DNA of 64,000 nt, from contig JAQWTI010000005.1 in NCBI GenBank assembly GCA_029242745.1, positions 1-64,000 on the forward strand, given 5' to 3'. The DNA comes from Acidimicrobiales bacterium (GTDB lineage: Bacteria; Actinomycetota; Acidimicrobiia; Acidimicrobiales; MedAcidi-G1). The stretch's first letter is position 1; every line of letters starts with the position of its first letter. A model generated the notes under the pieces. It had not been told where the DNA came from, did not search any database, and saw only the letters and a program-made list of their open reading frames with translations. Below are positions 34,972 to 61,516 of this stretch, piece by piece. A program made the position numbers and the translations under genes.

Positions 34972-36216
34972 ATGGCTGGAGTCGAACCGACCCACACAAC
35001 GGATCTCCTCGTAGTAGGTGGAGGTCCAGCAGGAAGCGCTGCGGCCATCACCGGAGCCAAAGCCGGCTGTTCAGTACTGCTCGTCGACAAGGCCTCCTTC
35101 CCGAGAGACAAATGCTGTGGTGACGGTCTCACCACTCTGGCGCTGCGATTAGGCGAGCACCTCGGCTTGGACCCGAATCTGCTATCAAGGTGGCAGCCCG
35201 TGGCCGACGCTGTGATCCACTCACCATCTGGGCGATCGACCCGGTTTCCACTCCCAAGCAACGATGGTCAGTACGCCGCAATCGTTCCCCGCCAGGACTA
35301 TGACATGGCGCTTCTGTCTCTCGCCCGAGAAGCAGGCGCTGAGGTCGTTGACGGCCACGAAGTGACCCACCTCGGTGTAGTCGGCAACGGTGGAGGAGCC
35401 ACGGTTGAGGTGGCTGGGCTGGGATCAGTATGGGCTAAGACTGTTGTAGCAGCCGACGGCATGTGGTCAACCGTCCGCCGGAATCTCGGCCTATCGACTA
35501 GCGACGACCGTGGCCAGTGGCATGCCTTCCGCCAGTACGTGTCCAACGTAAGCCGATTAGCCAGTGATCTACATATATGGTTCGAGCCTGACCTACTTCC
35601 GGGATACGCATGGTCGTTTCCTCTCCCAGACGGGCGAGCAAACCTTGGCTTTGGCGTTCTACGGGGCGGCCCTGTACCTGTGGGTGACACCGGGAAGATC
35701 TGGGATGGTCTCATGGATCGGCCATCTATTCGAGCCGTGCTGGGTGATCATGCCCAACTCGAAGGTCGACGTACGGCATGGCCCATTCCCGCCAAAGTTG
35801 ACCGGGCGGTGCTCGACTACGGCCCAGTGCTGTTTGTCGGCGACGCAGCGGCAGCCACCGACGCCCTTACCGGCGAAGGAATAGGTCAAGCACTAATGAC
35901 CGGCATCCTGGCTGCGGAGGCTGCGACTGCTGGGGGCACTGAAGCCGATATTGCGATTTCATATCGAGAGGCGGTACAGCGAGAGTTAGTAGCCGACCAC
36001 CGGATGTCCGTAGCTCTGCAAAAGGTATTGGCTCGACCGTTCGGGGCTCGAGCGGCTGTCCGTCTAGCCGGCCTTAATCGATGGAGCCGACGAAACTTTG
36101 CTCGGTGGATGTTCGAGGACTATCCACGTGCCCTCATTGCCACTCCCCACCGCTGGAAACGCGGAGCCCTCTCTACCTCCGGCGCCTACACAAGTTCACA
36201 AATCGAATCAGTCTGA
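34972..36216 (+). CDS. Geranylgeranyl reductase family FAD-dependent oxidoreductase
   Basis: FAD enzyme that reduces isoprenoid chains; in actinobacteria related proteins (MenJ) saturate the menaquinone side chain. The 414 residues start with the FAD-binding [19 protein letters not shown], contain [11 protein letters not shown] (family motif with Cys pair) and [23 protein letters not shown] (second FAD motif). Membrane-associated action is family knowledge. ATG 34972, 19 bases after nucS. Confidence 0.9.
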
Positions 36217-36340
36217 GAGCGCTCCGAACTTCTACTGCTTGGGTACACAGCGAACAGCACCGACTCTCTGCAAGCGCAACGTCGCTGAAGCCTCCACCTC
36301 GAGAAGTTCCACCTATCTAACGGCGGTATGGTCGCCACTG

Positions 36341-37402
36341 ATGACATCAAACACACCAAACTTTATTAATCAACCTGTTGAGCAAAGGATTGGTCTGTAC
36401 TTTCAGGACAAGCACCCCATAGATGTTGAACTCGCAATGGCTCGATACGCCGAAGAAAGAGGCATTACCGAGATCTGGCAGGCCGACACTCGCCTTGCCC
36501 GCGACTGCGTAGTCATGATGGGTGCCTTGCTGGCTGGTACCAACACAACCCGGGTTGGGTCAGGCGTTCTTCCCATCTGGACCCGAAACCCCGCAGTCAT
36601 CGCCGCTTCTTGGAGCACCATGTGGGAATTGGCTGGCCGCAGCCCAAGCGGCCACAGCCGCGTCATGCTTGGTCTGGGCGCTTGGTGGGAACCAATCGCC
36701 TCGCGAGTTGGCGAAAATCGCCACAGACCCCTAGCGGCTCTGCGCGAGAACATCGAATCCATCCGTGCACTATTCACTATGGACGAAATCTCCTACGAAG
36801 GTGAGTTCGTCCACCTCGACCGGGTGAAGTTGGACGTGGCCTATGGCGATGCCAGTCCACGCGAGATCCCCATCTACCTAGGAGCTACCGGACCTAAGGC
36901 GCTGGAACTGGCGGGCGAAACTTGTGACGGAGTCGTCCTGAACTACGTTGTAACCGCAGAACACATTCGCCGCTCAGTTGAACGTGTGGCTGCCGGCGCT
37001 GAACGATCGGGACGAACTATCGACCAAGTTGACCGGCCAGAATTATTGGTCTGCTCGCTGTCTGACGATGACCCAACTGAGGCCGTCCGGGCTGGTAAAT
37101 CCCTGGTTGCGTACTACCTAGGTACCGAGCCTCACATAATGGAAGCCAGCGGCGCTGATCCTGACTTGATAACCCGAGTGCAGGAAGTCGTTGGCTGGCC
37201 AGCTACGGAGGCCGACTATCAGCGTGCCGCTGATCTGATTCCGGAAGACCTCGCCCGATCTCTGATGGCGGTCGGTTCTACAAACGAGTGCATCGATACG
37301 GTGGCAGAGTTTGTGGACGCCGGCGTGACTTGTCCGATTCTCTATCCGTTAATGGACGACATGGTGCCTGTCATCGATGCCTTCGCCGGCTGGACGCCCT
37401 AG
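36341..37402 (+). CDS. LLM-class F420-dependent oxidoreductase
   Basis: TIM-barrel luciferase-like monooxygenase family protein of about 353 residues. Core features: [22 protein letters not shown] at the start, [61 protein letters not shown]. This pattern fits the methylene-H4MPT reductase-like F420 group rather than FMN luciferases (inference). ATG 36341 is preferred; the open frame before it overlaps the reductase gene and looks non-coding. It precedes the selenium-molybdenum hydroxylase cluster; a second LLM gene follows that cluster. Confidence 0.86.
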
Positions 37403-37559: not shown

Positions 37560-38297
37560 GTGCCTCGAGCGATCAGCTATCACCGCCCCGGCTCTGTGCA
37601 TGATGCCATCAGCCTGCTGGTCAATAACGATCACCTGCCGCTCGCCGGCGGCACGGTACTTAATGCCGACGACGACCCGACTCTCGTCTCTTTTGTAGAC
37701 CTTCAGGAGTGTGGCCTCGCCAACATCGACGAAGTTGGTAGTCGGCTAAGGCTTGGGGCCATGCTCACCCTCCATGACCTGACAACCGATTCCCGCGTCC
37801 CAGTTGGTCTAGCCAACGCTGCTCGGGCTGAACTGCCAAGCACGCTACGTACCTTGGCAACAATTGGTGGAACGGTGGCGACGAGGCACGCAGACAGCGT
37901 CTTACTGGCTGCTCTCCTGGTTTATGAAGCTTGCGTCACGGTGGCCGGCCCCAACGAAGAAAGCGTAGTTCCGTTAGCGGAACTTCTCCATAACGGCGTA
38001 GACAAAGGGCACCTAGTTGTTGCTTTGGATGTTGAAACATCAGGTACTTGCGTCCGGCATGCCACTAGCCGCACTCCAGCTGATACTCCTATCGTTTCGG
38101 CAACAGCGCGTGCTACCGATGAAAGCGCCTGGCTGGCGCTGACCGGTGTCGCCGCCCACCCAGTGCTCGCCAACCCAAAGGACCCCACCACCGACATCGC
38201 GCCAATTGGCGATTTCCGAGGTAGTGCCGAATACCGGCGCAGGTTGTCAAAAATACTTTCATCGAGGGCCTTGGCTGAGGCTAGGAAGTTCGCCTAA
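37560..38297 (+). CDS. ygfM: FAD-binding subunit of the XdhD-type molybdenum hydroxylase (YgfM-like)
   Basis: Predicted flavin subunit that transfers electrons from the XdhD-type hydroxylase. The 245 residues show the FAD_binding_5 start PRAISYHRPGSVHDAISLL, LAGGTVLNAD, and TLATIGGTVATRHADSVLLAALL, which parallels E. coli YgfM (STIGGEIAAR then ESVLLPVLL) more closely than ordinary XdhB/CoxM. GDFRGSAEYRRR is the family ending. The GTG at 37560 with GGGAGG about 6 bases upstream decides the start; an upstream open stretch is not YgfM-like. Its stop overlaps the xdhD ATG, so the two are coupled. Confidence 0.85.
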   Translation: MPRAISYHRPGSVHDAISLLVNNDHLPLAGGTVLNADDDPTLVSFVDLQECGLANIDEVGSRLRLGAMLTLHDLTTDSRVPVGLANAARAELPSTLRTLATIGGTVATRHADSVLLAALLVYEACVTVAGPNEESVVPLAELLHNGVDKGHLVVALDVETSGTCVRHATSRTPADTPIVSATARATDESAWLALTGVAAHPVLANPKDPTTDIAPIGDFRGSAEYRRRLSKILSSRALAEARKFA

Positions 38298-41218
38298 TGA
38301 AGATCACCCTCGAACTCAACGAGACAAGCCGGACTATTGACTGTGCCGTCCATGAAAGCCTCCTCACTGTCCTCCGACGGGAGGGGATGGCCAGCGTGCG
38401 CTTTGGCTCAAATTCTGGAGAGACCGGTGCCGGAGCTGTACTTCTCGACGGGAAATTAGCAAGTTCTGAAGTCGTTCTCGCCGCTCAGGCCAACGGCCAC
38501 GCTGTCACTACTGTCGAGTCGCTTAACGTCGACGAGCGCCTCCACCCCATCCAAGCTGCCTTCGCTGCCACAGGAGCGATGCAGTCTGGTTACTCGGTCG
38601 GTGCCATGGTTCTCGGCACCCTCGCTCTCCTCAGAACAGACCCAGACCCCAGTGAGAACACCATCCGGGACATGCTCTCGGGAATCCTTGACCGCGAGAC
38701 GGCGTATGTAAAACCAGTAGCGGCAGTCCAGCAGGCTGCAGCAGTGCTTCGAGGCGAGGAGGCTGAACCGTTCCGCCCCTTAATGGTCGCTCCAATAACC
38801 GACGGCATACATCCAGTTGATCACGATCCTGATGATCCCCCACCTACCGGTTCGCCAGCTGTCCCGAGAGTCGTCCCGTCTCGAGATGTCCCTACCACCA
38901 CCGTCGTGGGCCATCCCGAAGTCAAGGTTGATGCTCTTCGACTGGTCAAGGGCAACCCGGCGTTTACTGATGACTTTGATATGCGCGGCCTGCTGTACGC
39001 CAAAGTACTGCTCAGCCCACACGCTCACGCCCGAATCATCTCCATAGACGATTCTGCAGCGCGTGCACTGCCCGGGGTGCACGCTGTGATCCACCACGAA
39101 AATGTGCCTAGGATCAAATACGCCTCGGGAGGCCAGTCTTACCCAAACCCCAGACCCTACGATCAGGTCTCTTTTGATAACAAGGTCCGTCACGTCGGCG
39201 ACAGAGTAGCGGCAGTGGCTGCCGACACAGTTGAGATCGCGCAGGAAGCATGCTCGCTGATTGAAGTTACCTGGGAAGTACTCCCGGCCGTATTCGATGA
39301 GTTGGAGGCGCTATCGGGCGATGCTCCAGTTATTCATGACGAAACCGACACGATTGACATCGCTGACCCGTCACGCAATCTGGTGCATCACATAGTGGCT
39401 GAACGCGGCGACGTTGACGCCGCCCTGTCTGCAGCCGACCACTACTACGAGCAGACGTTCCGGGTGCACCAAGTGCAGCAGTGCCCTATCGAGCCTCACA
39501 TCTCCGTGGCATGGTTGGACTCTGACGAACGCCTTGTGGTGCGAACCGCTACCCAAGTGCCATTCCATACGCGCCGGATGCTGGCACCCCTCGTGGGGCG
39601 TGAAATCAAAGATATACGGATTATCAAACCCCGAATCGGTGGTGGCTTCGGCGCCAAGCAAGAAATGCTGCTTGAAGACATTGTTGCTCATCTGGCTATC
39701 GCTACACGCCGGCCAGTTCGACTGGAACTAACTCGCGAAGAGGAGTTCATTGCCAGTCGGACCCGGCACCCGCAAACAATGACCTATCGGACTGGTGTCA
39801 ATGGAGACGGCACCTTGGTGGCCCAAGAGTTGCAGTTAATTGGAAATACTGGACCATACGGAACTCACGGATACACAGTCCAGAGCGTTTCAGGTCTGCG
39901 CGGACTTACTTCATACAACGCCCCCAACAAACGCTTCGACTGTGAAGTCGCCTACACCAACATCCCAGTACCCGGCGCCTACCGCGGTTACGGAGCCCCT
40001 CAAGCACTCTTTGGCTTGGAATGTCACATGGAAGACATTGCTGCCGACCTTGGATTTGATCCGATTGAGTTTCGGCGTCAGAACTGGGCCAAGACCGGTG
40101 ACGAGTTAACTATCGCTCCTCATCTTGGTGAGCGGGCTGTCGTAGATGGGGAACTTGACCAGTACCCGGTTGTTGGGTCTGACGGCATTGAAGAGTGCGT
40201 AGCCCAAGGGTCGAGAGCAATCGGTTGGCACAGACGCTACGACAGATCTTGGCGAGAACCTGCTGGCTCTCGCCACATCCGGCGCGGGATCGGTTACGCC
40301 CATGCCATGCACGGGACATCCATTCCGTATTTAGATATGGGTGGCTGTTCAATCAAGTTAAATGACGACGGGTCGTTCAACATGCTGGTCGGTGCGACCG
40401 ACCTAGGAACCGGGGCCGACACGGTGCTTGGCCAGATTGCCGCCGAAGTTCTCGGAGTTCCCCTCGACGACATCCGGGTTTACTCTTCGGACACTGATAT
40501 GACTCCGTTCGATACTGGAGCTTACGCTTCAAGCACAACTTACATATCAGGCACAGCAGCAATGAAGGCTGCTGAGGTAGTTCGCAAACGACTTAAAGAG
40601 CGCGCCGCCATGCTCCTTGAGGTACCGATTCCCTGCTCCATTGAGCTCAGAGACCGGCGAGCTTACGCTCCAGATGGCAGATCGGTCAGCATGGAAGAGA
40701 TCGCCCTGGACTCACTTCACCTCAACGAACACGAACAGATCATGGGCACCGGATCACACGTCTCACCAGAATGTCCGCCGCCCTTCGGCGCCACCTTTGT
40801 GGAGATTGAACTTGATCTAGAGACCGGCCAGGTAGAGGTCAAGCAGATGGTGATGGCAGTGGACTGTGGCGTCGCCATTAATCCAGTGACAGCCAGCGGC
40901 CAAGTCGAAGGTGGAATGCTCCAGGCCCTTGGCTACGCCCATTGCGAAGAGTTTGCTCTTGACGAGAACGGTCGGATGCTTAATGCGGCATTCGGGCCCT
41001 ACTGGATCTACAGAGCAGACGAGATGCCCCGGACTGACGTCTTTCTGGTGCAGACAATGGAAGACAGTGGACCTTTCGGCGCCAAAGCGGTGGCCGAGAT
41101 CCCCAAAGATGGCTTGGCCCCAGCTCTCCGCAACGCAATCGTAAATGCCACCGGTGTCCGGATCGACCAGTTGCCGTTCACTCCAGAACGGGTGTTTAAC
41201 GCCCTTCAGAAGAGCTGA
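38297..41218 (+). CDS. xdhD: XdhD-type molybdopterin hydroxylase, putative selenium-dependent purine/hypoxanthine hydroxylase
   Basis: Large molybdenum hydroxylase, 973 residues. The N-terminal ~165 residues have the CoxS/XdhC-like [2Fe-2S] fold, but the expected cluster Cys are gone (RFGSNSGETGAGAVLLDGK, MQSGYSVGA, GILDRETAY). E. coli XdhD shows the same loss (its VVQSGYN parallels MQSGYS), which points to XdhD rather than standard xanthine dehydrogenase. The Mo domain is intact: QQCPIEPHISVAW, RIGGGFGAKQ, GAYRGYGAPQALFG, and the C-terminal DSGPFGAKAVAEIPKDG containing the candidate catalytic Glu. The downstream yqeB/yqeC genes imply the labile selenium cofactor. Substrate is probably a purine (xanthine or hypoxanthine), an inference from the family and neighbours. 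The E. coli partner YgfK is not in the window. Confidence 0.88.
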   Translation: MKITLELNETSRTIDCAVHESLLTVLRREGMASVRFGSNSGETGAGAVLLDGKLASSEVVLAAQANGHAVTTVESLNVDERLHPIQAAFAATGAMQSGYSVGAMVLGTLALLRTDPDPSENTIRDMLSGILDRETAYVKPVAAVQQAAAVLRGEEAEPFRPLMVAPITDGIHPVDHDPDDPPPTGSPAVPRVVPSRDVPTTTVVGHPEVKVDALRLVKGNPAFTDDFDMRGLLYAKVLLSPHAHARIISIDDSAARALPGVHAVIHHENVPRIKYASGGQSYPNPRPYDQVSFDNKVRHVGDRVAAVAADTVEIAQEACSLIEVTWEVLPAVFDELEALSGDAPVIHDETDTIDIADPSRNLVHHIVAERGDVDAALSAADHYYEQTFRVHQVQQCPIEPHISVAWLDSDERLVVRTATQVPFHTRRMLAPLVGREIKDIRIIKPRIGGGFGAKQEMLLEDIVAHLAIATRRPVRLELTREEEFIASRTRHPQTMTYRTGVNGDGTLVAQELQLIGNTGPYGTHGYTVQSVSGLRGLTSYNAPNKRFDCEVAYTNIPVPGAYRGYGAPQALFGLECHMEDIAADLGFDPIEFRRQNWAKTGDELTIAPHLGERAVVDGELDQYPVVGSDGIEECVAQGSRAIGWHRRYDRSWREPAGSRHIRRGIGYAHAMHGTSIPYLDMGGCSIKLNDDGSFNMLVGATDLGTGADTVLGQIAAEVLGVPLDDIRVYSSDTDMTPFDTGAYASSTTYISGTAAMKAAEVVRKRLKERAAMLLEVPIPCSIELRDRRAYAPDGRSVSMEEIALDSLHLNEHEQIMGTGSHVSPECPPPFGATFVEIELDLETGQVEVKQMVMAVDCGVAINPVTASGQVEGGMLQALGYAHCEEFALDENGRMLNAAFGPYWIYRADEMPRTDVFLVQTMEDSGPFGAKAVAEIPKDGLAPALRNAIVNATGVRIDQLPFTPERVFNALQKS

Positions 41219-41226
41219 CTGCGCCG

Positions 41227-42588
41227 ATGGGCTTATCGCCTGTAGACCCCGCTGTCGGGATAATCCTCTGCCCCGATTGGCTACTAGCCGATGCTGAGAC
41301 AGAGCCAATTCAAGCTGGTGCTGTACGGATCGTCGACAACACGGTCGATGCCGTCGGTCTTGGCAGCGCCCTCATTGCCCGCCACCCCGAAGACGACGTA
41401 ATAGACCTTCCAGACCGGATCATCCTTCCGGGTTTCGTGAACGCCCATGTCCACATGTACGGACTACTAGCCCACGGCATTCCCCTTGATGCTGCCCCAA
41501 AGGGATTCTGGTCATTCCTCAAAGATTTTTGGTGGCCGAAAGTCGAAGACCGCCTCGATCACGAGATGGTGGCTGCTGCCGCCGACTGGGCCTGCACTGA
41601 GATGCTCCGCTCAGGAACCACAACGTTTCTCGACATTTTGGAGGCACCAAATACATTGCCCGAGGGCTTAGAGGCACAGGCCGGGGCGGTAGAGCGATCC
41701 GGACTTCGAGGGATTCTGAGTTTTGAGTGCACCGAGCGATCCGGAGCAGCGGTGGCTGCTGCTGGATTAAAAGAGAACGTTCGCTTTATCGAAACGTGTC
41801 GACATGTAAGGGGCAACAAAACCACGTCCCTGCTCTCAGGCTTAATTAGCATTCATACCCTTTTCACTTGCTCAGATGACTTCATTCATGAGGTGTTCAA
41901 CCAGGCCTTAGATCTCAACGTGTTGCTCCATGCCCACTGCAACGAAGGAATCCATGAGGGCGAGTGGTGCGAAGCGAACTACGGACATCGCACCCTTGAA
42001 CACTATGAACATTTGGGAGTGGCAGGACCTAACTTCTTGGCTTCACAGGTAGTCCATCTTTCTGCCACAGAACAGAGGATATTGAGTGACCGCAATGTGC
42101 GCTGCAGCCATATGCCAATGGCTAATGCTGAGGTTGGAGGCGGCGTCGCCCCTATCCCAGAACTACGAGGCGCGGGCGTCACGGTGGGCCTGGGCTCGGA
42201 CGGCTACGTCAACGATCTCTACGAGGTTGCACGTAGTGCGTTTCTGATCCACAAAGCCCGACTCCAAGACCCGGGCGTCATGGATGCTCACCAAGTGCTG
42301 GCAATGGCCACCACCGGAGGTTCGGAGGCACTCGGCCTTGAGAGGGTGGGGCGCCTAGCGCCTGGGTGGTCGGCTGATCTTCAGGTGATAGATAGCCGGT
42401 TCCCCACACCTACCACCACGGCCAACCTTGCGGAACAAGTAGTTTTGTTCCGCAATGGCCAACACGTGGAATCCGTGATGGTGGCCGGAAAATGGCGTGT
42501 CCGTAACGGCGAACTGGTAACGGGTGATCCTGATGCACAACGAGCTCACCTCCAACAACAAGCGCTGCGCCTTTGGAGCGCAGCATGA
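41227..42588 (+). CDS. ssnA: SsnA-like amidohydrolase of the selenium-hydroxylase cluster
   Basis: Metal-dependent amidohydrolase, 453 residues, resembling SsnA, which is encoded beside xdhD/ygfM in E. coli and in purine-degrading clusters of anaerobes. Seen: metal motif PGFVNAHVHMYGLLAHG, the SsnA-like AAPKGFWSFLKDFWWPK, HCNEGIHEGEW (HxxE intact), GGGVAPIPELRGAGVTVGLGSDGYVNDLYEVA with the catalytic Asp, and an HKARLQDP segment. In this superfamily the chemistry is deamination or ring-amide hydrolysis of a heterocycle; the substrate is not fixed. The ATG at 41227 is 8 bases after the xdhD stop. Confidence 0.78.
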   Translation: MGLSPVDPAVGIILCPDWLLADAETEPIQAGAVRIVDNTVDAVGLGSALIARHPEDDVIDLPDRIILPGFVNAHVHMYGLLAHGIPLDAAPKGFWSFLKDFWWPKVEDRLDHEMVAAAADWACTEMLRSGTTTFLDILEAPNTLPEGLEAQAGAVERSGLRGILSFECTERSGAAVAAAGLKENVRFIETCRHVRGNKTTSLLSGLISIHTLFTCSDDFIHEVFNQALDLNVLLHAHCNEGIHEGEWCEANYGHRTLEHYEHLGVAGPNFLASQVVHLSATEQRILSDRNVRCSHMPMANAEVGGGVAPIPELRGAGVTVGLGSDGYVNDLYEVARSAFLIHKARLQDPGVMDAHQVLAMATTGGSEALGLERVGRLAPGWSADLQVIDSRFPTPTTTANLAEQVVLFRNGQHVESVMVAGKWRVRNGELVTGDPDAQRAHLQQQALRLWSAA

Positions 42589-43442
42589 GCCTTACATTGG
42601 GCACTCCCGGCAACTCAGGTCAGCAACTCCGACCAGTATCCACCGGTGCGGCGGTTGACTCCCGCATCTTTGACACCCTTCGAGGTCTGGTCGCGGAAGG
42701 CCGTTCAGTGGTGCTGGCGACTGTCATCTCCACTTCACGGTCAGTCCCTCGGCGGGCTGGTGCCAAAATGTTGATCGTTGACGACGGTCGGCAGATTGGC
42801 ACGGTGGGTGGCGGTGAGATGGAAGCCAGAATGGCCAATGAGGCCATTGGTTGCCTGACCGACGGCCAATCCCGACTTGTCGACTACCGGCTTGTCGACC
42901 CAAGCTCCGGAGACCCCGGAGTTTGTGGCGGGGACGTCACAATTTACCTGGAGCCCTATATGCCCCCTTCGACCATCTTTGTTATCGGCTGTGGTCACGT
43001 CGGCAAAGCCGTTGTCGAATTGGCTTCTTGGCTGGGCTTCCATGTGGTGGCAAGCGATGACCGTTCCGACATCGCTCAGGGATTAGCGGAAGAACTACCT
43101 GAGAATTCAGCAGTAGACGTCCGTCCAGGTCCGCTATCCGAGGTGTTGAATAACCTTCCGCTAGGGCCCCGAGATCACGCGGTAGTAGTCACCCGCAACG
43201 TACAAGTTGATGTGGCCAATCTCCCGCTCCTTCTGGCTACCAACGTTGGGAGAGTGGGCGTCATGGGCAGTATTCGACGCTGGGATACCACTCGGAATGC
43301 TCTACTTGACCTCGGCGTGACCGAGATGGATCTGGAACGAATTGTCTCTCCAATTGGAGTGGAGATAGGGGCTGAAACCCCCGAGGAGATTGCCCTGTCG
43401 ATTCTTGCGCAAGTAGTTGGACTTCGACAGACCCCTAATTGA
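42585..43442 (+). CDS. xdhC: XdhC/CoxI family molybdenum hydroxylase accessory protein
   Basis: Accessory protein that delivers and protects the molybdenum cofactor for hydroxylases. The 285 residues from ATG 42585 show the XdhC_CoxI N-terminal domain (RSVVLATVISTSRSVPRRAGAKM, GTVGGGEMEARM, GVCGGDVTIYLEP) and the C-terminal Rossmann domain (FVIGCGHVGKAVVELASWLGF). The start overlaps the ssnA stop by 4 bases (ATGA). Position between ssnA and yqeB fits maturation of the XdhD enzyme encoded just upstream. Confidence 0.9.
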   Translation: MSLTLGTPGNSGQQLRPVSTGAAVDSRIFDTLRGLVAEGRSVVLATVISTSRSVPRRAGAKMLIVDDGRQIGTVGGGEMEARMANEAIGCLTDGQSRLVDYRLVDPSSGDPGVCGGDVTIYLEPYMPPSTIFVIGCGHVGKAVVELASWLGFHVVASDDRSDIAQGLAEELPENSAVDVRPGPLSEVLNNLPLGPRDHAVVVTRNVQVDVANLPLLLATNVGRVGVMGSIRRWDTTRNALLDLGVTEMDLERIVSPIGVEIGAETPEEIALSILAQVVGLRQTPN

Positions 43443-43454
43443 GGTGAACGTGCA

Positions 43455-44273
43455 GTGCTATTTGAAAAATACCTCTGTCTCTTAAGAGGTGGTGGTGATT
43501 TAGCAACTGGAGTAGCCCTAAGGCTCCACCGTGCAGGATTCCCTGTGGCTGTTTGTGAGTTGGAGCGTCCCCTTACCGTCCGCAGGACAGTTGCTCTCTC
43601 CACGGCACTAACCCATCCATCAGGTGTGGTCAGCGTCGAGGGTATGACAGCCCGCCGGGTCAAGAGTTTCCTCGAGTTGTGTGATGAGGCGGCAACGGGT
43701 GTGATACCCGTGGTAGTCAGTCCCGACCTACCAACAACTGATCTTCTGCCCCGGTCGGTGGTAGTTGATGCACGCCTGCTCAAACGCAACCCCGACACCT
43801 CATTAGATGATGCGCCTTTGGTCATTGCACTTGGGCCCGGTTACACAGCCGGTCGCGACTGCCACGTGGTGGTAGAGACCTTGCGCGGGCCAGACCTCGG
43901 CCGGGTAATCGTCAACGGCCGAGCAGCCACCGACACTGGAACACCTGGAACGGTAGGAGGTCACTCCACCAAGCGAGTGCTGCGAGCCCCAGCCGACGGG
44001 GAGGCGCAGTGGGTCCAAAAAATTGGCAATCGGGTCTCAGTGGGCGAGTTATTGGGTCATGTAGGCGACACCCCTGTGGTGTCCACACTCGATGGGGTGA
44101 TTCGAGGTCTAGTGGCTGACGGGACACCCTTAGAGCTCGGCACCAAAATCGGTGATGTAGACACACAAGTCGGAGTTCTCGTCAACCAAATTTCAGATAA
44201 GGCACTGGCGGTAGGCGGAGGGGCCCTCGAGGCAGTCATGACCTGGGTCGGTCGTAACGCGTCAAGAGTCTGA
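43455..44273 (+). CDS. yqeB: Selenium-dependent molybdenum hydroxylase maturation protein YqeB
   Basis: Member of the YqeB (EF2563) family, a genomic marker of selenium-dependent molybdenum hydroxylases. The 272 residues begin with LLRGGGDLATGVALRLHRAGFPVAVCE (family motif GxGDLATGVAxRLxRAGF), then PLTVRRTVALS, VVDARLLKRNPDTSLDDAPLVIALGPGYTAG and VNGRAATDTGTPGTVGG. The exact chemical role in selenium incorporation is not established. GTG start with GAGGTGA about 8-14 bases upstream; 12 bases after xdhC, one base before yqeC. Confidence 0.9.
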   Translation: MLFEKYLCLLRGGGDLATGVALRLHRAGFPVAVCELERPLTVRRTVALSTALTHPSGVVSVEGMTARRVKSFLELCDEAATGVIPVVVSPDLPTTDLLPRSVVVDARLLKRNPDTSLDDAPLVIALGPGYTAGRDCHVVVETLRGPDLGRVIVNGRAATDTGTPGTVGGHSTKRVLRAPADGEAQWVQKIGNRVSVGELLGHVGDTPVVSTLDGVIRGLVADGTPLELGTKIGDVDTQVGVLVNQISDKALAVGGGALEAVMTWVGRNASRV

Positions 44274-44274
44274 C

Positions 44275-45012
44275 TTGCATCCCCTCGCCCCAGCACATGT
44301 TGCCGACCTCCTGAACGGCCCGGGGCGGATCACTGCTCTCGTGGGCGGTGGTGGAAAGACCACCCTGCTGCATGCCCTCGGCACCCACCTTGGTTCAAGG
44401 GTTGTCCTCACCACCACCACTCAGATGGCTATCCACGAAGTCGGTAATGCTCGACTACTCGTCGGACCGTCACCTGAAGAAGTGGCTGCCGCCGTGGTAG
44501 ATGAAAACCAGCCGATTCTGGTTTGGGATCGCATCGATAACCTGAGCCCAAACCAGCCCAAGGCTTTCGGGGTGAAGCCGTCTATCCCCTCCGACTGGTT
44601 GAAATTCGTCGACCATGTAGTAGTCGAAGCTGACGGCTCAAGGGGTCGCCCAGCCAAAGCACCGGCCCCCCACGAGCCAGAGTTACCTACCGGACCGGTT
44701 GACGTAGTGGCTGTCATCGGTGCCGATGCCCTAGACCGGGTAATCGCCGACCAGTGCCACCGTCCCCTCCGGCTCGCTGCAGTTGTTGGTTGTTCCCCGT
44801 ATGAGCGCCTCACCCCGGAACGGGCTGCAGTGCTACTAACTCATCACAACGGTGCCCGTCGTGGGGTACCAGCGGACGGAGGGTTTGCTATCGCAGTAAC
44901 AAAGGTCAACGACATTGTGCGACCACTAATTGAACACTTAGTAGACGCAATAGACGAACGGTCTCCCACCACCTCTATTCACTTGTTCGATGACCGGGAT
45001 AGATTTCACTGA
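44275..45012 (+). CDS. yqeC: Selenium cofactor biosynthesis protein YqeC
   Basis: P-loop protein of the YqeC family, the second marker of the selenium-dependent molybdenum hydroxylase trait. The 245 residues contain Walker A ITALVGGGGKTTLLHALG, VVLTTTTQM, VVVEADGSRGRPAKAPAPHEPELP (EADGSRG...KAPAxHEP is the family signature) and VIGADALDRVIADQCHRP. TTG start one base after the yqeB stop. Together with yqeB and xdhC it implies a dedicated maturation set for XdhD. A selD gene supplying selenophosphate would be expected elsewhere in the genome. Confidence 0.92.
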   Translation: MHPLAPAHVADLLNGPGRITALVGGGGKTTLLHALGTHLGSRVVLTTTTQMAIHEVGNARLLVGPSPEEVAAAVVDENQPILVWDRIDNLSPNQPKAFGVKPSIPSDWLKFVDHVVVEADGSRGRPAKAPAPHEPELPTGPVDVVAVIGADALDRVIADQCHRPLRLAAVVGCSPYERLTPERAAVLLTHHNGARRGVPADGGFAIAVTKVNDIVRPLIEHLVDAIDERSPTTSIHLFDDRDRFH

Positions 45013-45992
45013 TGTCCGACCGATACCTCCGAGGCAGCGTCAACCTGATTCCTGAGGCACCGGTAGCTTCTATAAGGGATCTCGCTGTCGAAGCCGAACG
45101 ACTCGGCTTCCAGCGCTGCTGGGTATATGACGAAGGGCTAGCAACACGTGAGTTGTACGTAACCCTGACTGCGATTGTCGGGGCCACCGAGAAGTTGGAA
45201 GTCGGACCTGGAATCACCAACCCCTATACCAGACACCCAGCCCAAACTGCTTCGGCCATTGCCACTCTCGACGAGTTGTCAGGTGGGCGAGCCTTCATGG
45301 GCTTAGGAGCAGGCGGAAGTTTGACGCTTGATCCGTTAGCCCTGGAACGAACACGGCCATTAGAGACTGTTGGAAGAACTATCGAAGCCTGCCGTGCCCT
45401 CTTCGCCGGTGAGGTGGTCAACATGGATGCGCCAACGTTCTCGCTGCGGAAGGCGCAATTGGGCTGGGCTCGACCTGACCTACCTATCTGGCTAGCCGGG
45501 CGCGGACCGCGGATGCTAGATCTTGGTGGAGCATCCGCCGACGGCGTCATGCTTGACTTCATCTATAAGCCCTCACTCGGTGATTACGTAGACCGTGTAC
45601 GAGCGGGGGCCGCCCGCACCGGCAATGAGGTGAGCATCTGTTATTCGACCATGGTGGTCACCGACGACGCTGCCCTGGAAGCGGTGCGACCCCACATGAC
45701 CTATCGGCTGATTGACTCCCCAGAACCAGTTCGAGCCGCCCTCGGCATAACCGATGCCAACGTGGCCTCAATCCGCGCCGCCTTAGCAGATGGTCTGGTT
45801 GCAGCCGCCCATTACGTGCCAGACGAGTGGGTTCTGCCGTTCGTAATCGCTGGATCTGTCACCGAATGTGCAGCTGAACTAGAGCGTCTCGCTGACCAGC
45901 ACGGTCTAGATGAATTCCTGCTTCCGATCTTCGACGTCAAGGACGGAGCCTCGCTGCTGGAGGTGACAGCGCGCGTGCTGGACGGGCCATGA
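45012..45992 (+). CDS. LLM-class F420-dependent oxidoreductase (second copy)
   Basis: Luciferase-like monooxygenase family protein, 326 residues: SIRDLAVEAERLGFQRCWVYDEG, ALTAIVGATEKLEVGPGITNPYTRHP-type segment, GGRAFMGLGAGGS, LPIWLAGRGPRMLDLGGASADGVMLDF. It belongs to the methylene-H4MPT-reductase-like F420 group (inference). The ATG overlaps the yqeC stop, so it is translationally linked to the selenium-cofactor genes. Two LLM genes bracketing this cluster suggest an electron or substrate link, but no substrate can be named. Confidence 0.87.
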   Translation: MSDRYLRGSVNLIPEAPVASIRDLAVEAERLGFQRCWVYDEGLATRELYVTLTAIVGATEKLEVGPGITNPYTRHPAQTASAIATLDELSGGRAFMGLGAGGSLTLDPLALERTRPLETVGRTIEACRALFAGEVVNMDAPTFSLRKAQLGWARPDLPIWLAGRGPRMLDLGGASADGVMLDFIYKPSLGDYVDRVRAGAARTGNEVSICYSTMVVTDDAALEAVRPHMTYRLIDSPEPVRAALGITDANVASIRAALADGLVAAAHYVPDEWVLPFVIAGSVTECAAELERLADQHGLDEFLLPIFDVKDGASLLEVTARVLDGP

Positions 45993-46696
45993 GCCCCCTT
46001 TTCAACGAACCAGTACTGACACACTCTGCGACCGAGGTGCTCGCTGCCGCTGGAGTATCTGTTCCAGTTGCTGGACCCATCCCTCTCCTGGTGGATCCTC
46101 CTCACCCAATTGTGAGGGACGGAAAAGACGAACCCCTAGTACTGCTAGACCATCCCCGCATTATGAATCTGGAGAACTACCACCGTGCAGGCTGGTGTCA
46201 TGCCCTTCCCGGCTGCCGGTTGAGGGAGTCGGTAGCTGAACGCTTAGGTCGAGTAGCCAACAGCCTTCCTGCCCGTTGGGGGTTGGCCGTCTTTGATGGA
46301 TGGCGACCTCATGCCCTCCAGGTCGAGTTGCACAGCGCCGCCTACGCCGACCCCTGTCTTCCACCTGGTTTCTTTGCTGAACCAGATGAGAGGTCTTCGA
46401 CGCCGTCACCTCATCTAACCGGCGGCTCCGTAGACCTCACTCTTTCCCTCGATGAGATCCCGCTTGCTCCGGGGACTGGCTTCGATGACCTCACGCCCCG
46501 TGCCTATACGAGAGCGCTGGAAGATGAGCCAGGCGCCAATCGCGATATTCGACGGTTGCTGTATCACGCCATGGTGGCAGAAGGATTTGTGGTGTTCGAT
46601 GGCGAATGGTGGCACTTTGAATACGGCACCCGCCGTTGGTCGGCCATCACTGGTCGACCACCTAAGTTTGGGTCAGCAATAAATACAGAGAACTAA
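45989..46696 (+). CDS. D-alanyl-D-alanine dipeptidase family protein (VanX/DdpX type)
   Basis: Zinc dipeptidase family protein, 235 residues, with metal motifs PSPHLTGGSVDLTLSL (SxHxxGxAxD-type His and Asp) and EWWHFEYGTRRW (Glu and His). The N-terminal PLVLLDHPRIMNLENYH is consistent. It would cleave D-Ala-D-Ala or a related dipeptide; as the last gene of the selenium-hydroxylase operon (ATGA overlap with the LLM gene) its role there is unclear. It may be a DdpX-like scavenging enzyme. Confidence 0.84.
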   Translation: MSPLFNEPVLTHSATEVLAAAGVSVPVAGPIPLLVDPPHPIVRDGKDEPLVLLDHPRIMNLENYHRAGWCHALPGCRLRESVAERLGRVANSLPARWGLAVFDGWRPHALQVELHSAAYADPCLPPGFFAEPDERSSTPSPHLTGGSVDLTLSLDEIPLAPGTGFDDLTPRAYTRALEDEPGANRDIRRLLYHAMVAEGFVVFDGEWWHFEYGTRRWSAITGRPPKFGSAINTEN

Positions 46697-48707: not shown

Positions 48708-50027
48708 GTGAAAATCCGAGGAACGATCCTCCACACACCCGAGAAGGGCAAGTTGGAGGTACTAGAGGACCGAGTAATAAGCACGAATCCTCTTGGCGTC
48801 ATTATCTCAGTGGCTCCTTTCACCGCTGATTGCCGTCCAGATGTTGAACTCGACAAATCCAAAGTCCTCCTTCCAGGCTTGGTCGACACACATATTCATG
48901 CGCCCCAATGGCCACAACTGGGAACTGGGTTAGACGAACCACTTGAAAAATGGCTCTTCAAGTACACCTTTCCGTTAGAAGCACGCTTCGCCGACGAAGA
49001 CTTCGCTCAAAGAGTCTGGCAGTCAATGGTTCCAAAACTCTTAAGCCAGGGAACCACCACAGCGGTCTACTTCTCCTCCATCCATGAGGCGTCGACGTTG
49101 GCCCTTGCAGATAACTGCCTTAATTACGGCCAGCGGGCTTTCGTAGGCCGAGTGGCGATGGACCACCCGGACGGAACTCCAGACTGGTACCGGGATTCGA
49201 GCGCCTCAGAGGGGGTGGAGGCTTCACACCGTTCGATTGTTGATATCCGCTCCCTACCCAACAATCACGGTTTAGTTGAACCGATAGTGACTCCGAGATT
49301 TATTCCAGCCTGTACTGACGAACTACTTGCTGAACTCGGCAAACTCGCTGCAGCCGAGAGTGTTCTGACCCAGACACACTGCTCCGAAAGCGACTGGGAA
49401 CACGGGTATGTATTTGAACGACATGGGGCCAGTGATACGACCGCACTAGAAGATTTCGGCTTACTACGAGATCACACAGTTCTGGCACATGGCGCCCATC
49501 TCTCCGAACAAGACATGCATGTTGCAGCAGCGGCAGGTGCTGGCGTAGCTCACTGCCCTGTAAGTAACTCCTACTTCGCCAACGCAACCTTCCCCTTGGC
49601 CAGAGCCCTTGAAAGCGGCCTCAGAGTTGGACTGGGTAGTGACATCGCCGGAGGTTCGCAATCAAATCTCTTTCGGCAGTGTGAGCACGCAGTCACTGTG
49701 TCACGGATTCTTGATGACGGTGTAGACGCATCAATTCCAGCAAACCAACGCGGTGTTGCTAACTCAAGAATAGATATACCTACGGCATTCTGGACTGCTA
49801 CTGCCGGAGGGGCTGAACTCCTAGGGATACCTGTTGGCATCCTTGCCGAAGGTTTTGCGTTTGATGCCATAGCTGTTGACATTGGAGCAAACAGTTCTGC
49901 CGGTATCTGGCTCGAGTTCGACGACTGGCCGAGGATCTTTGAAAAACTCATCCGATGCTCGACAGCGGCCGACATCAGCCAGGTTTGGGTAGATGGCAAA
50001 GAAGTTAAAAACTTCTCTAGCAATTAG
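48708..50027 (+). CDS. guaD: Guanine deaminase
   Basis: Converts guanine to xanthine and ammonia. The 439 residues have the family signature PGLVDTHIHAPQWPQLGTGLD followed by EPLEKWLFKYTFPLE, the QTHCSESDWEHGYV segment (HxxE intact), LAHGAHLSE, and VGLGSDIAGGSQSNL with the catalytic Asp. Length is standard. GTG start at 48708 (MKIRGTILHTPEKGKLEVL); no strong ribosome-binding site. It lies between another amidohydrolase and a nucleoside-type importer. In this cluster it would feed xanthine, or a methylated analogue, to the hydroxylase encoded at 38-41 kb (inference). Confidence 0.92.
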   Translation: MKIRGTILHTPEKGKLEVLEDRVISTNPLGVIISVAPFTADCRPDVELDKSKVLLPGLVDTHIHAPQWPQLGTGLDEPLEKWLFKYTFPLEARFADEDFAQRVWQSMVPKLLSQGTTTAVYFSSIHEASTLALADNCLNYGQRAFVGRVAMDHPDGTPDWYRDSSASEGVEASHRSIVDIRSLPNNHGLVEPIVTPRFIPACTDELLAELGKLAAAESVLTQTHCSESDWEHGYVFERHGASDTTALEDFGLLRDHTVLAHGAHLSEQDMHVAAAAGAGVAHCPVSNSYFANATFPLARALESGLRVGLGSDIAGGSQSNLFRQCEHAVTVSRILDDGVDASIPANQRGVANSRIDIPTAFWTATAGGAELLGIPVGILAEGFAFDAIAVDIGANSSAGIWLEFDDWPRIFEKLIRCSTAADISQVWVDGKEVKNFSSN

Positions 50028-50035
50028 GGGCCGAC

Positions 50036-50052
50036 TCTGGGAGCGTCCCAGA
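50036..50052. terminator. Hairpin between guaD and the ABC permease gene
   Basis: Perfect 7-base arms (tctggga / tcccaga) with a 3-base loop, 8 bases after guaD and facing the convergent transporter operon. No T-run follows, so a bidirectional stem terminator is likely but unproved. Confidence 0.48.
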
Positions 50053-50154
50053 ACCCAGAAAAGGCTAAGGCCATTCACCAGATTCCCGAGAAAAAACGAT
50101 CTGGATGCCGTGTCGGTGTTGTCCAAAGCTGGAACTTGCAGCCACGAATCAGGT

Positions 50155-51126
50155 TTAGATTTGTGCACCTTTGAAGAAGGGGCGACCTAACGCTTCCGGT
50201 TCGCCACTTTTGCGGGCCCGAGCACTCGCAAATACAACTACTGCAATTGTCACCAGATAGGGCATCGCTTGAAATAGCTCGAAGGGGACATCGCTCTCTA
50301 TTCCACCACTTGCTGCTTGGATCCGGAGTTGAATGGCATCCGTAAGGCCAAAGAGCAAAGCTCCTGCCATTACCCGCAGCGGTCGCCACCGCCCGAAGAT
50401 CACCAAGGCAATCGCTACCCACCCTCTGCCTGCGGTGACATTCTGCATGAACATTCCAAGTTGGCCTATGACTAGAACAACGCCACCGAGGCCCGCCATT
50501 GCGCCAGAGATAAGAATTGCCAGCCAACGGGTCCTGTACACGCTGATCCCAGCGGCATCTGCCGCAGCCGGTTTATCTCCGACTGCCCGAACAGCCAGTC
50601 CAAAAGTTGTCCGGTTGAGGAGGTACCAGATTCCCCAAATCAGTACGACCGAGAGATACACGAGTGGCGACTGATCAAAGAGGACTGTTCCAACACCAGG
50701 AATCGACGCAAGGCCAGGAATCTTCCAGTTCCCCATTGGCTCAAAACGCCCAGTCAAGGTTAGGTCTCCAAACAACTTCTCAAAGGTAAAACTTGTTCCT
50801 GCTTGGGCCAGCAGAACTAGGACAATTCCATTGATTACTTGTTCGGTTTTGAACTGAAGCGTGAAAAGGGCCATGAGAACTCCGACCAACAATCCACCTC
50901 CGATCCCTGCTGGAACCCCGACCCATAGAGATCCGCTGTAATAGGCGCCCAGATAGGAAGTCAAGGCCCCCGACAGCATCATCCCTTCAAGACTGAGATT
51001 CAGCACGCCGGCTCTTTGGCAAAAGGACTCGCCGACTGCGGCCAATCCAGTAGGAATCGCCAACCGAATCGCTGCGTTTAATAGTGGGATCAGCGCTGCG
51101 CCGCCAAAGACACTACTCCAGTCCAT
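50155..51126 (-). CDS. ABC transporter permease, nucleoside/BMP type (YufQ-like)
   Basis: Inner-membrane permease, 323 residues and about 8-10 transmembrane helices. It begins with LIPLLNAAIRLAIPTGLAAVGE and has the conserved FCQRAGVLNLSLEGMMLSGAL segment of BmpA-associated permeases for nucleosides and purines. Start ATG 51126 overlaps the stop of the partner permease by one base. The three transporter genes lie in the order ATPase, permease 1, permease 2. Likely substrates are nucleosides or purine bases (family knowledge plus context). Confidence 0.9.
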   Translation of the reverse strand: MDWSSVFGGAALIPLLNAAIRLAIPTGLAAVGESFCQRAGVLNLSLEGMMLSGALTSYLGAYYSGSLWVGVPAGIGGGLLVGVLMALFTLQFKTEQVINGIVLVLLAQAGTSFTFEKLFGDLTLTGRFEPMGNWKIPGLASIPGVGTVLFDQSPLVYLSVVLIWGIWYLLNRTTFGLAVRAVGDKPAAADAAGISVYRTRWLAILISGAMAGLGGVVLVIGQLGMFMQNVTAGRGWVAIALVIFGRWRPLRVMAGALLFGLTDAIQLRIQAASGGIESDVPFELFQAMPYLVTIAVVVFASARARKSGEPEALGRPFFKGAQI

Positions 51127-52202
51127 TACCTGTCCTTCCGACGATCAGCTAGGAGGAGAAAGAGAACAAATATGGCCTGGATGACCATGGTTAGAACTCG
51201 CGGAACCTGTTGGGTCCTTTGAATTACATCACCACCAAGAGTTAAAGCCCCAAGTAATGCTGCTGCTACCACAACACCAATAGGGCGAAGGCGGGAGATT
51301 AACGCAACAACGATCGCCGTGAATCCGAAGCCCGTCGACATATTGTTACTTAGCCGGAGTTCTGAACCCATCACTTGGATAATCCCAGCAAGCCCTGCAA
51401 ATGCCCCCGAGAGGAGCATGATCCTCACCGTCATGCGCGAGGTATGCACACCTGCGGCCTGGGCAGCCTCCGGATTCATACCAAACATGGTTGCTCTTAG
51501 GCCAAAAGGTGACCTGTTAACCAGGAAACTGACCAACGGCACTAGGAGTAGCGCAAAGATGATTCCGATATGAACTCGAATCTGATCGACTGGAACATCA
51601 GCAAGTACGAACTGGTCGGGAATACGCTCAGACGTCGGCTGGAACCCACCAGGATCGCGCAATGGCTTTCGGACTGCGTAGGCAAAAATAAACAAAGCTA
51701 CGTAGTTAAGTAGAAGCGACGAGATCACCTCGTTCACTTGCCAGCGCACACGTGCCACTGCAACAAGCGCTCCCCAAAGCGCCCCAGAGGCAGCCCCGAC
51801 GACAAGCACAATTGGAATCGCAAGAAATGGACTGCCTATCGGGACATGTAGAGCGAAGGCCCCACCAACAAGGGCCCCAAACATGAACTGGCCCTCCGCT
51901 CCGATATTCCATATTCGAGCCCGGAAGGCGATTACGAGCCCAAGCCCGATGATCACCAACGGAATCATCTCTGTAAGAACCAAGCTTAGGTCAAACATGG
52001 AACCGAAGGTTCCCTGAACCATCTCGATATACGCGTCAATAGGGTTGGCGCCGACTAGGGCTAGAAGAATGCCACCAGTAGCCAAGGCGCCAAAAACCGC
52101 CAACATCCAGCGAGCCAGCGCAGGTAGTTCAAACTCCTTGCGCAAGTCAGTCTTGGCAATCATCAACCCAGGCACCCAACTAAACGATTTCCAGGGAACC
52201 AC
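51126..52202 (-). CDS. ABC transporter permease, nucleoside/BMP type (YufP-like)
   Basis: Second permease of the importer, up to 358 residues. It has the family segment PLVIIGLGLVIAFRARIWNIGAEGQFMFGALVG and NPEAAQAAGVHTSRM (cytoplasmic EAA-like loop). The first possible start is GTG 52202; ATG 52163 (MIAKTDLRKEFELP) is an alternative and neither has a clear ribosome-binding site. It follows the ATPase gene by 15 bases and overlaps permease 2. Confidence 0.9.
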   Translation of the reverse strand: MVPWKSFSWVPGLMIAKTDLRKEFELPALARWMLAVFGALATGGILLALVGANPIDAYIEMVQGTFGSMFDLSLVLTEMIPLVIIGLGLVIAFRARIWNIGAEGQFMFGALVGGAFALHVPIGSPFLAIPIVLVVGAASGALWGALVAVARVRWQVNEVISSLLLNYVALFIFAYAVRKPLRDPGGFQPTSERIPDQFVLADVPVDQIRVHIGIIFALLLVPLVSFLVNRSPFGLRATMFGMNPEAAQAAGVHTSRMTVRIMLLSGAFAGLAGIIQVMGSELRLSNNMSTGFGFTAIVVALISRLRPIGVVVAAALLGALTLGGDVIQRTQQVPRVLTMVIQAIFVLFLLLADRRKDR

Positions 52203-52217
52203 TCGATGAACTGATGG

Positions 52218-53882: not shown

Positions 53883-54039
53883 TGACTCTCTAAGTACTAG
53901 AAGTAGAGCCTGAGCAAAGGCGAAATGTGGCTAGTTGGAAAGTGCAAAGATACGCGATCGGTTCTTTGCCTTGAAATTTCATCTCGCAAATTAGGTACGT
54001 TAAATACGTGATACTTGGGAGTAGGACCTCTTAATAGCC

Positions 54040-57060: not shown

Positions 57061-57701
57061 TAGGTCAATATCCCCGCCTCGAGCACGCCTGCCATTAAAG
57101 TGAATCTTGGCAGACGACGAAATCGATCAGTCCATCGCCGAATGGCTGGATAAGAAACACGATTCACGCCTCCCTCTTCTGACAAAATAACATCAGGAAA
57201 CAGAACTAGGTCAGCAAGTGTTGGCGCTTCAGCCGAACAGACCCAATTTAGATTTCTCTGCTCCTGAAACCAAAGGTGCTCATCAAGCGTCCTAAATAGC
57301 CGATGTGCCCCTGCACGGCAGGCGTCGATATCGAATTCGTAGCCGAGACTGTCATGCAATCGGGCAGCAGACGCAGTGTTCGTTGTGCCCTCTGCAAACA
57401 TCATCCACTGGGCAGTTTCACCCAGAAGTGAGGGCTGTTCAACTGGGTACCAACTGTTCAAAGTATCATGTTTAGTAGCAAGGTAAATAAGAATGGCGTT
57501 GGCATCACGAAGAACATAACCATCGTCATCGATCACAGGAATATGGCCTAGCGGGTTCACTTCCTTGAACCATTCAGATTTATGTTCCCATCCGGGAAAG
57601 AAATCAATCGGATGCAACTGGTGCGATATTGATAAAAAATTAAGTAATAACCGTACCTTGTAGCAGTTGACAGATAACTCATAATCGTAAAGGGTCACCA
57701 T
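57060..57701 (-). CDS. Glutathione S-transferase-like protein (NdmE-like)
   Basis: A 213-residue GST-fold protein: MVTLYDYELSVNCYKVRLLLNFL (thioredoxin-fold start), NPLGHIPVIDDDGYVLRDANAILIYLA, and C-terminal helices with AEAPTLADLVLFPDVIL. It sits 10 bases after the NdmD-like reductase gene. In Pseudomonas methylxanthine degraders, NdmE is a GST-like protein needed structurally for the NdmC-NdmD N7-demethylase complex; this gene holds the same place in the operon. Actinobacteria usually use mycothiol rather than glutathione, so a structural role is more likely than glutathione transfer (inference). Confidence 0.82.
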   Translation of the reverse strand: MVTLYDYELSVNCYKVRLLLNFLSISHQLHPIDFFPGWEHKSEWFKEVNPLGHIPVIDDDGYVLRDANAILIYLATKHDTLNSWYPVEQPSLLGETAQWMMFAEGTTNTASAARLHDSLGYEFDIDACRAGAHRLFRTLDEHLWFQEQRNLNWVCSAEAPTLADLVLFPDVILSEEGGVNRVSYPAIRRWTDRFRRLPRFTLMAGVLEAGILT

Positions 57702-57711
57702 TAGCTGGTCC

Positions 57712-60386: not shown

Positions 60387-60439
60387 CCAAGCCTCCAAAC
60401 TGAGCTTTTGAATTTGTATATATGAGATTCATGCTCAAC

Positions 60440-61507: not shown

Positions 61508-61516
61508 ATGCGCCTT

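Follow-up and report, generated by a model that had tools for sequence, protein, structure and literature searches.

The locus described here raises the question of which enzyme is made by a molybdenum hydroxylase operon that carries markers of a selenium cofactor, lies in an actinobacterium and encodes a catalytic chain without cysteine ligands for iron-sulfur (Fe-S) clusters. We analysed a window of 64,000 nucleotides (contig JAQWTI010000005.1 of assembly GCA_029242745.1, an Acidimicrobiales bacterium), in which a first-pass annotation had read a complete selenium-dependent molybdenum hydroxylase operon; as a whole, this reading proved partly supported. The six tightly packed, co-directional genes that it described (ygfM, xdhD, ssnA-like, xdhC, yqeB and yqeC) were confirmed at 37560–45012; neighbouring genes overlap slightly or are separated by at most 12 bases. 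The features that enter the argument are the following.

36098–37402, + strand: LLMup, LLM (luciferase-like, F420-type) oxidoreductase 1; longest ORF, true start probably later
37560–38297, + strand: ygfM-like FAD subunit; GTG start with GGGAGG upstream (longest ORF from 37437)
38297–41218, + strand: xdhD, Mo-cofactor catalytic chain with N-terminal ferredoxin-like and helical [2Fe-2S]-type domains
41227–42588, + strand: ssnA-like amidohydrolase; two SsnA models are its top NCBIfam matches
42573–43442, + strand: xdhC, Mo-cofactor maturation chaperone (PF13478, PF02625)
43455–44273, + strand: yqeB, selenium-dependent Mo hydroxylase maturation (TIGR03309, 280.9 bits, cut-off 220)
44275–45012, + strand: yqeC, selenium cofactor protein (TIGR03172, 132.4 bits, cut-off 73.05; PF19842)
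45012–45992, + strand: LLMdn, LLM (F420-type) oxidoreductase 2; start codon on the yqeC stop
45989–46696, + strand: M15 (D-Ala-D-Ala dipeptidase-like) hydrolase (PF01427, 60 bits); overlaps LLMdn, last gene of the unit
48708–50027, + strand: guanine deaminase-like gene (TIGR02967, 357 bits, cut-off 375.4); purine context, outside the operon
14443–15387 of contig G000:C11 in the same genome: selD (343.6 bits, cut-off 125); one in-frame TGA

The putative transcription unit is larger than six genes, running on into LLMdn and the M15 gene, and LLMup precedes ygfM. Locus L059 keeps the full order of LLM, amidohydrolase, ygfM, xdhD, ssnA, xdhC, yqeB, yqeC, LLM and M15, with the M15 gene in the same place, and L075 and L071 retain most of the window's gene set. 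LLMup orthologues (73–75% identical) lie two genes upstream of ygfM in all three of these loci, a counterpart of LLMdn occupies the same place in L059 and L075, and LLM genes thus flank the operon in the window and in those two loci. As this gene order recurs in other Acidimicrobiia genomes, the arrangement is not due to chance. Most Acidimicrobiia members carry ygfM-xdhD-xdhC-yqeB-yqeC without SsnA or LLM genes at that place; in several of them, different amidohydrolases and another Mo hydroxylase lie in the vicinity of XdhD.

Profile searches place XdhD in the xanthine oxidase family by its Mo-cofactor domains (MoCoBD_1, MoCoBD_2 and Ald_Xan_dh_C; PF02738 at 256 bits, PF20256 at 246 bits), with orthologues that are 65–76% identical, and YgfM matches PF00941 (FAD_binding_5, 58 bits). 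In the XdhD/YgfM/SsnA set that had been named, all three proteins score under their own curated cut-offs: 651.4 bits against 1101.9 for XdhD (TIGR03313, the XdhD equivalog), 79.3 against 241.5 for YgfM (TIGR03312), and 262 and 242 bits for the two SsnA models, each under its cut-off (TIGR03314 at 242.3 of 455.5). XdhC likewise reaches 104 bits of 161.6 with TIGR02964. Both LLM proteins match PF00296 (LLMup at 193 bits, from residue 107; LLMdn at 164 bits), and their top NCBIfam matches, F420_mer for LLMup (140 bits) and PRK02271 for LLMdn (203 bits, cut-off 276), are under cut-off as well. The operon can also not be called complete, as we found no match for YgfK or MocA/YgfJ within the 64-kb window and none for the diaminopropionate ammonia-lyase YgeX in the genome, which is 94.7% complete.

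Purine-type genes continue downstream of the operon, with amidohydrolases of purine type and a gene of the adenosine deaminase family. At 48708–55416, the guanine deaminase-like gene is accompanied by SsnA/8-oxoguanine deaminase-type amidohydrolases and by ABC genes resembling a purine nucleoside importer, and over this island the G+C content drops from 57% to about 50%. The minus strand at 57060–62590 encodes a GST-like protein, a Rieske-ferredoxin-reductase fusion, two more Rieske-type proteins and the adenosine deaminase family gene, a set that we take to resemble NdmC/D/E of caffeine N-demethylation; the Rieske proteins of this stretch gave no specific NCBIfam match, and we considered methylxanthine N-demethylation as their possible role. 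The window's genome encodes seven Mo hydroxylase chains in total; two more of these seven lie on the same contig, next to an Fe-S chain and a relative of the LLM proteins. This second cluster (L178, 16313–17329, and L179, 1–6026, on G000:C24) combines Mo hydroxylase chains with a Cys-containing Fe-S chain and an FAD chain; it also has amidohydrolases, ABC genes of purine type and an LLM gene whose start resembles that of LLMup. At 5672–11961 of L180 (G000:C18), dihydropyrimidinase, ureidopropionase-like, aminotransferase and LLM genes stand together, as read by eye, and may perhaps represent a pyrimidine reductive pathway with an F420-type LLM reductase; the genome has one D-hydantoinase over cut-off, an uncertain candidate for the HyuA hydantoinase of the reductive urate pathway, and its pyrimidine-type cluster was recognised by reading neighbouring ORFs.

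Iron-sulfur ligands of XdhD and their loss among relatives

Enzymes of the xanthine oxidase family normally hold two [2Fe-2S] clusters with eight cysteines, and all eight ligands are seen in the alignment in E. coli XdhC. The window's XdhD has none of them, a loss that the first-pass annotation had overlooked: the equivalent positions are S38, T43, G46 and E58 in one set and S97, S100, D132 and E134 in the other, and the alignment around them is clear-cut. No Cys ligand was found in any of the 20 Acidimicrobiia relatives whose N-terminal domain could be read (one further row lacks the domain), and E. coli XdhD likewise has none in its N-terminal domain. With no [2Fe-2S] binding by normal ligands, the usual electron path of Mo, Fe-S, Fe-S and FAD is closed, and the folded enzyme would, as we infer from the sequence, lack both clusters. 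The Mo-to-FAD distance in xanthine-oxidase-type enzymes is long.

We rejected the reading of the emptied domains as decaying pseudodomains. Among the 20 Acidimicrobiia sequences, the mean identities of the two Fe-S-type domains (64% and 74%) come close to that of the Mo domain (77%), whereas the linker is at 36%, and all 20 rows share the loops QSGYS and LDRET, which once held ligands, without any change. An AlphaFold model of XdhD built with 20 sequences reached a modest pLDDT of 71; three ligand loops fall below 50, which proves little, as low values are expected of loops. The top Foldseek match is D. gigas aldehyde oxidoreductase. In a literature search, which left supplementary files and most subscription journals outside its reach, we found no published report of Fe-S-free enzymes of the xanthine oxidase family and none of Acidimicrobiia with an XdhD/YqeB system.

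To follow the ligands across relatives, we scanned with two Mo-domain peptide patterns taken from Acidimicrobiia sequences and kept the best 80 of 589 matches; Bacillota and most Pseudomonadota XdhD lie outside this sample, and the loss counts hold for this sample only. We read 79 family rows, three of them truncated at the first cluster, with E. coli XdhA on top as a placeholder row set to ‘both’, and the results of an XdhC profile, which matched antisense frames, were left out. Among the 76 rows scorable at both clusters, 17 have both, 13 have the Mo-side cluster only and 46 have neither (8 of these retain one lone Cys), and there is no row with the FAD-side cluster only. A tree of the Mo domain alone requires at least six changes at the FAD-side cluster and five at the Mo-side cluster; a careful 42-row tree, a hand-picked subset of the 97-row tree, gives six and four, or six and six if only losses are permitted. 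The FAD-side cluster was thus lost at least six times in the sampled tree, and before the Mo-side cluster. A single loss was rejected, since forcing the 24 distal-less rows into one group apart from 14 full-Cys rows cost 508.7 log-likelihood units (p-AU 0.0019) in a test that omitted E. coli and whose group was chosen once the first tree was known.

Two loci show states that differ from those of their neighbours in the tree. The XdhD of L126 (7740–10937) is without the FAD-side cluster and retains the Mo-side one beside an otherwise cluster-less clade, a living intermediate, and that of L146 (7977–10997) is an isolated case, without the FAD-side cluster and three of the four Mo-side ligands among eight-Cys relatives. 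The branch that joins E. coli XdhD to the family has moderate support (98 SH-aLRT in the 97-row tree; 93/87 in the 42-row tree, where the E. coli branch is long). Among the best 80 of 589 matches, the closest named relatives are metagenome-assembled genomes labelled Acidimicrobiia, Acidimicrobiales and Microthrix, with the marine actinobacterium MedAcidi-G1 at 81%, and two contigs labelled Planctomycetota, with XdhD 86–87% identical, which we take to be misbinned. L080, L090 and L139 carry Planctomycetota or Acidithiobacillus ferrivorans labels with XdhD deep within Acidimicrobiia or Chloroflexota clades and are probably misbinned.

Relation to urate reductases and the F420-type partners

The available part of PMC12507026 describes E. 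coli XdhD-YgfM as reducing urate to yanthine with NADH, after which YgfK and SsnA reduce and then open the ring; it proposes that Glu606 orients urate, reports an F420-type LLM enzyme in the place of YgfK in Chloroflexota, and is silent on the loss of XdhD Fe-S ligands and on selenium. The first-pass annotation had not taken this published urate reductase function into account. The window shares with this E. coli system the fusion of N-terminal domain and Mo chain, a separate YgfM, an SsnA-type amidohydrolase, Glu606 and the absence of Cys ligands. It differs in that the two XdhD proteins are 36% identical over their length, LLM genes occur and not YgfK, XdhC, YqeB and YqeC are encoded in the same operon, Arg replaces the Gln of E. 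coli XdhD in the GAY-x-GYGAP motif, and YgeX is missing, which would leave the published route to pyruvate incomplete. By its fused N-terminal domain, its Glu606 equivalent and its tree position, the window's XdhD falls within this family in the wider sense. The residue equivalent to Glu606 is Glu in the window, in all 21 Acidimicrobiia relatives and in every one of the 76 XdhD rows that could be scored, and the position is a gap in E. coli XdhA; the state is not exclusive to XdhD, some outgroup rows also having Glu. An Arg at the variable position of the GAY-x-GYGAP motif is the state of ordinary xanthine dehydrogenases and is found in E. coli XdhA too.

Further evidence comes from cofactor synthesis and from gene neighborhoods. 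The F420 synthesis gene cofH is present in the window's genome (473 bits). In the Chloroflexota locus L098, LLM together with YgeW-, YgeY- and HyuA-like genes surrounds a cluster-less XdhD that is 65% identical to the window's, and L110 has an Fe-S-type Mo hydroxylase, amidohydrolases, YgfM, a cluster-less XdhD, XdhC and LLM in a row. The window thus resembles the F420-type uricolytic clusters that PMC12507026 describes for Chloroflexota in having an LLM gene, YgfM and a cluster-less XdhD, and differs from L098, which has the YgeW-, YgeY- and HyuA-like genes and no YqeB or YqeC beside XdhD, its YqeB lying elsewhere in the genome. From the Glu606 equivalent, the LLM genes, cofH, L098 and L110, the reading that we prefer is a pathway that reduces oxopurines and is linked to F420, urate being the most likely substrate.

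Our best explanation, held with modest confidence, is that the operon probably encodes an F420-linked, selenium-dependent urate (oxopurine) reductase without Fe-S clusters in a member of the Acidimicrobiia that degrades purines and makes F420. XdhC, YqeB and YqeC would, judging from their marker families, prepare and insert a Mo cofactor with a labile selenium ligand; XdhD and YgfM would carry out the oxygen-removing step on an oxopurine, most likely from urate to 2,8-dioxopurine (yanthine) as in E. coli; one of the two LLM enzymes, with F420 as the presumed donor, would stand in for YgfK in dearomatising the product; and ring opening would fall to the SsnA-like amidohydrolase. Both ferredoxin-type domains would be kept as folds, with electrons bypassing the usual path through Mo, the Fe-S clusters and FAD. 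What the sequences show directly is the operon, its marker families, the ligand loss with its recurrence and the pairing of XdhD with YqeB; selenium in the cofactor, urate, F420 and the lack of clusters are our deductions. Several points count against this explanation: the scores of SsnA, YgfM and XdhD below the cut-offs of the families they are named after, the lack of YgeX, the pyrimidine-type setting of the D-hydantoinase, the Arg of the GAY-x-GYGAP motif, the Glu of some outgroup rows at the 606 position, the NADH use reported for E. coli XdhD-YgfM and the modest quality of the AlphaFold model. The substrate may also differ in most Acidimicrobiia members, where SsnA and LLM are missing beside XdhD.

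That distribution would also fit an alternative that we weighed and consider unlikely, a selenium-dependent Mo hydroxylase that oxidises another N-heterocycle, such as hypoxanthine, methylxanthine or a pyrimidine, with the LLM enzymes and amidohydrolases then degrading the product. The other amidohydrolases and second Mo hydroxylase of several relatives, the Rieske-type oxygenase genes downstream in the window and the Arg in place of the E. coli Gln all point in its direction. Against it stand the conservation of Glu606 throughout and the grouping of LLM, YgfM, XdhD and SsnA-like genes in the window; moreover, an enzyme that oxidises its substrate would still have to pass the electrons on by some route if it has no Fe-S clusters.

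Selenium markers and their co-occurrence with XdhD

The urate reductase reading includes a selenium ligand, for which the first-pass annotation had pointed to YqeB and YqeC, and both proteins are above their curated cut-offs, as listed. PMC5029168 gives YqeB, YqeC and SelD together as the signature of the selenium-dependent Mo hydroxylase trait and adds that a lone YqeB or YqeC may have roles unconnected with selenium. The first-pass annotation had named the lack of selD, or YqeB and YqeC scores under the family thresholds, as grounds for refutation, and neither applies; selD is present in the window's genome, and so are selB (265 bits, cut-off 242) and tRNA-Sec (67.5 bits, gathering score 47). 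The TGA within selD (L001, 1486–2568, on G000:C11) marks a selenocysteine SelD and is presumably the selenocysteine of the AGUGCK motif. Because selB, tRNA-Sec and this in-frame TGA are also present, selD lends weak and non-diagnostic support to the cofactor, and we rejected it as decisive proof, the selenocysteine system being present here and common in Acidimicrobiia. In a sample of 296 Acidimicrobiia genomes, 29 have YqeB, and 28 of these have selD over cut-off, as do 178 of the 267 others (Fisher p 4e-4), an association that mostly tracks the selenocysteine trait; selB, read off the listing by eye, is found in 27 of the 29.

The co-occurrence of XdhD and YqeB is far closer. A full-length XdhD at 63% identity or more is found in 29 of the 296 genomes (four of them partial at contig ends or frame-broken) and YqeB is over cut-off in 29, with 28 genomes common to both (Fisher p 6e-37, with G286 counted against and kinship ignored by the statistic). 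Both exceptions have assembly explanations: in G286, which has XdhD, YqeB is in two pieces on two contigs (205 and 97 bits) and below cut-off, and in G278, which has YqeB without XdhD, the adjoining XdhC lies 129 bases from the contig end (L069). G239 carries XdhD and YqeB on separate contigs. Among 50 genomes with a more distant XdhD, nearly all Chloroflexota, YqeB is present in 44 and over cut-off in 43, near XdhD in few; this count covers XdhD-bearing genomes only. This near one-to-one profile is stronger evidence for the selenium link than selD. By these counts, the gene combination, described as best known from clostridia and enterobacteria, is not limited to those groups, since YqeB is over cut-off in 29 of the 296 Acidimicrobiia genomes and XdhD relatives are abundant in Chloroflexota among the best 80 of 589 matches.

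A second Mo chain, 47–51% identical to XdhD over residues about 200–972 only, occurs in 15 Acidimicrobiia genomes and allows a comparison within the class. The seven of its 15 loci that we fetched (L181–L187) all encode an adjacent Fe-S subunit with all 8 Cys and an adjacent FAD subunit, so that this sister enzyme shares with XdhD the Mo domain and the neighbouring FAD subunit and differs in having its Fe-S clusters on a separate subunit. The 12 of the 15 genomes that are without XdhD have no YqeB over cut-off, and YqeB is found only in the three that have XdhD.

A reading that we regard as decidedly unlikely is an ordinary sulfur-type enzyme, with YqeB and YqeC as general Mo-cofactor chaperones and no selenium. 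The description of YqeB as an XdhC homologue in PMC2997495, together with the possible selenium-free roles of YqeB or YqeC alone noted in PMC5029168, would be in keeping with it, and selD could be explained by selenocysteine use, which its distribution mostly tracks. Against it, the window's genome has all three components of the published signature, selD is more frequent in YqeB genomes than in others, and XdhC is also present, which makes YqeB additional to XdhC. Selenium dependence of the window's enzyme appears well supported by markers and co-occurrence. Like the selenium-dependent Mo hydroxylases of PMC2276186 and PMC11448449, the window has YqeB and YqeC beside a Mo chain of the xanthine oxidase family and SelD in the genome; unlike them, its chain is without Fe-S ligands and the window has no MocA/YgfJ match. 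In addition, the nearby Rieske-type genes suggest an oxygen user, whereas 79.8% of trait-bearing organisms were found in anaerobic settings, according to PMC5029168.

Electron routes and what the finding means

As E. coli XdhD-YgfM was reported to use NADH (PMC12507026), transfer from FAD to Mo without Fe-S ligands seems possible in that enzyme. A commentary (PMC12990295) counts the physiological donor of electrons to the related XdhAC among the unknowns. In the window's enzyme, YgfM may dock in another way, the vacated ferredoxin face may receive a flavin or F420 enzyme, or two purines may exchange electrons at the Mo site. We tentatively suggest that the XdhD lineage discarded its Fe-S wire repeatedly, FAD side first, and that the Acidimicrobiia form is an Fe-S-free Mo/Se enzyme that may either swap oxygen and electrons between two purines or be supplied with electrons by a flavin or F420 enzyme bound to the vacant ferredoxin domain.

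A purely transhydroxylase-like enzyme, in which one purine (for example xanthine to urate) reduces Mo and another (urate to yanthine) re-oxidises it, would need no Fe-S wire and would fit the recurrent loss of all eight ligands, FAD side first, from domains that stay conserved, as well as seven Chloroflexota loci with no YgfM beside the gene (L111, L112, L113, L114, L120, L124 and L135, searched within 8 kb on contigs often ending near the gene), but we find it highly improbable, given that YgfM is beside most cluster-less XdhD, that E. coli XdhD-YgfM uses NADH according to PMC12507026, and that the seven loci could have their donor elsewhere. In L112, a dihydroorotate dehydrogenase-like gene (6821–7957; PF01180, the UacX domain named in PMC12507026) lies directly upstream of a cluster-less XdhD without YgfM.

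The selenium cofactor trait has so far been known from the co-occurrence of YqeB, YqeC and SelD. As YqeB is tied almost one-to-one to one enzyme in Acidimicrobiia, the profile tells which protein to purify for selenium. This XdhD belongs to a family whose E. coli member was recently shown (PMC12507026) to catalyse the first step of anaerobic urate degradation. With all Fe-S ligands gone, as in E. coli XdhD too, the electron route becomes a sharp question. The loss also bears on Fe-S annotations, since the NCBI name of E. coli XdhD is that of a fused Mo-binding and Fe-S binding subunit, and TIGR03313 reads ‘Mo/Fe-S-binding subunit’. What is new is the cluster-less catalytic chain with F420-type partners; the selenium-enzyme operon itself is of a known type, here in an actinobacterium.
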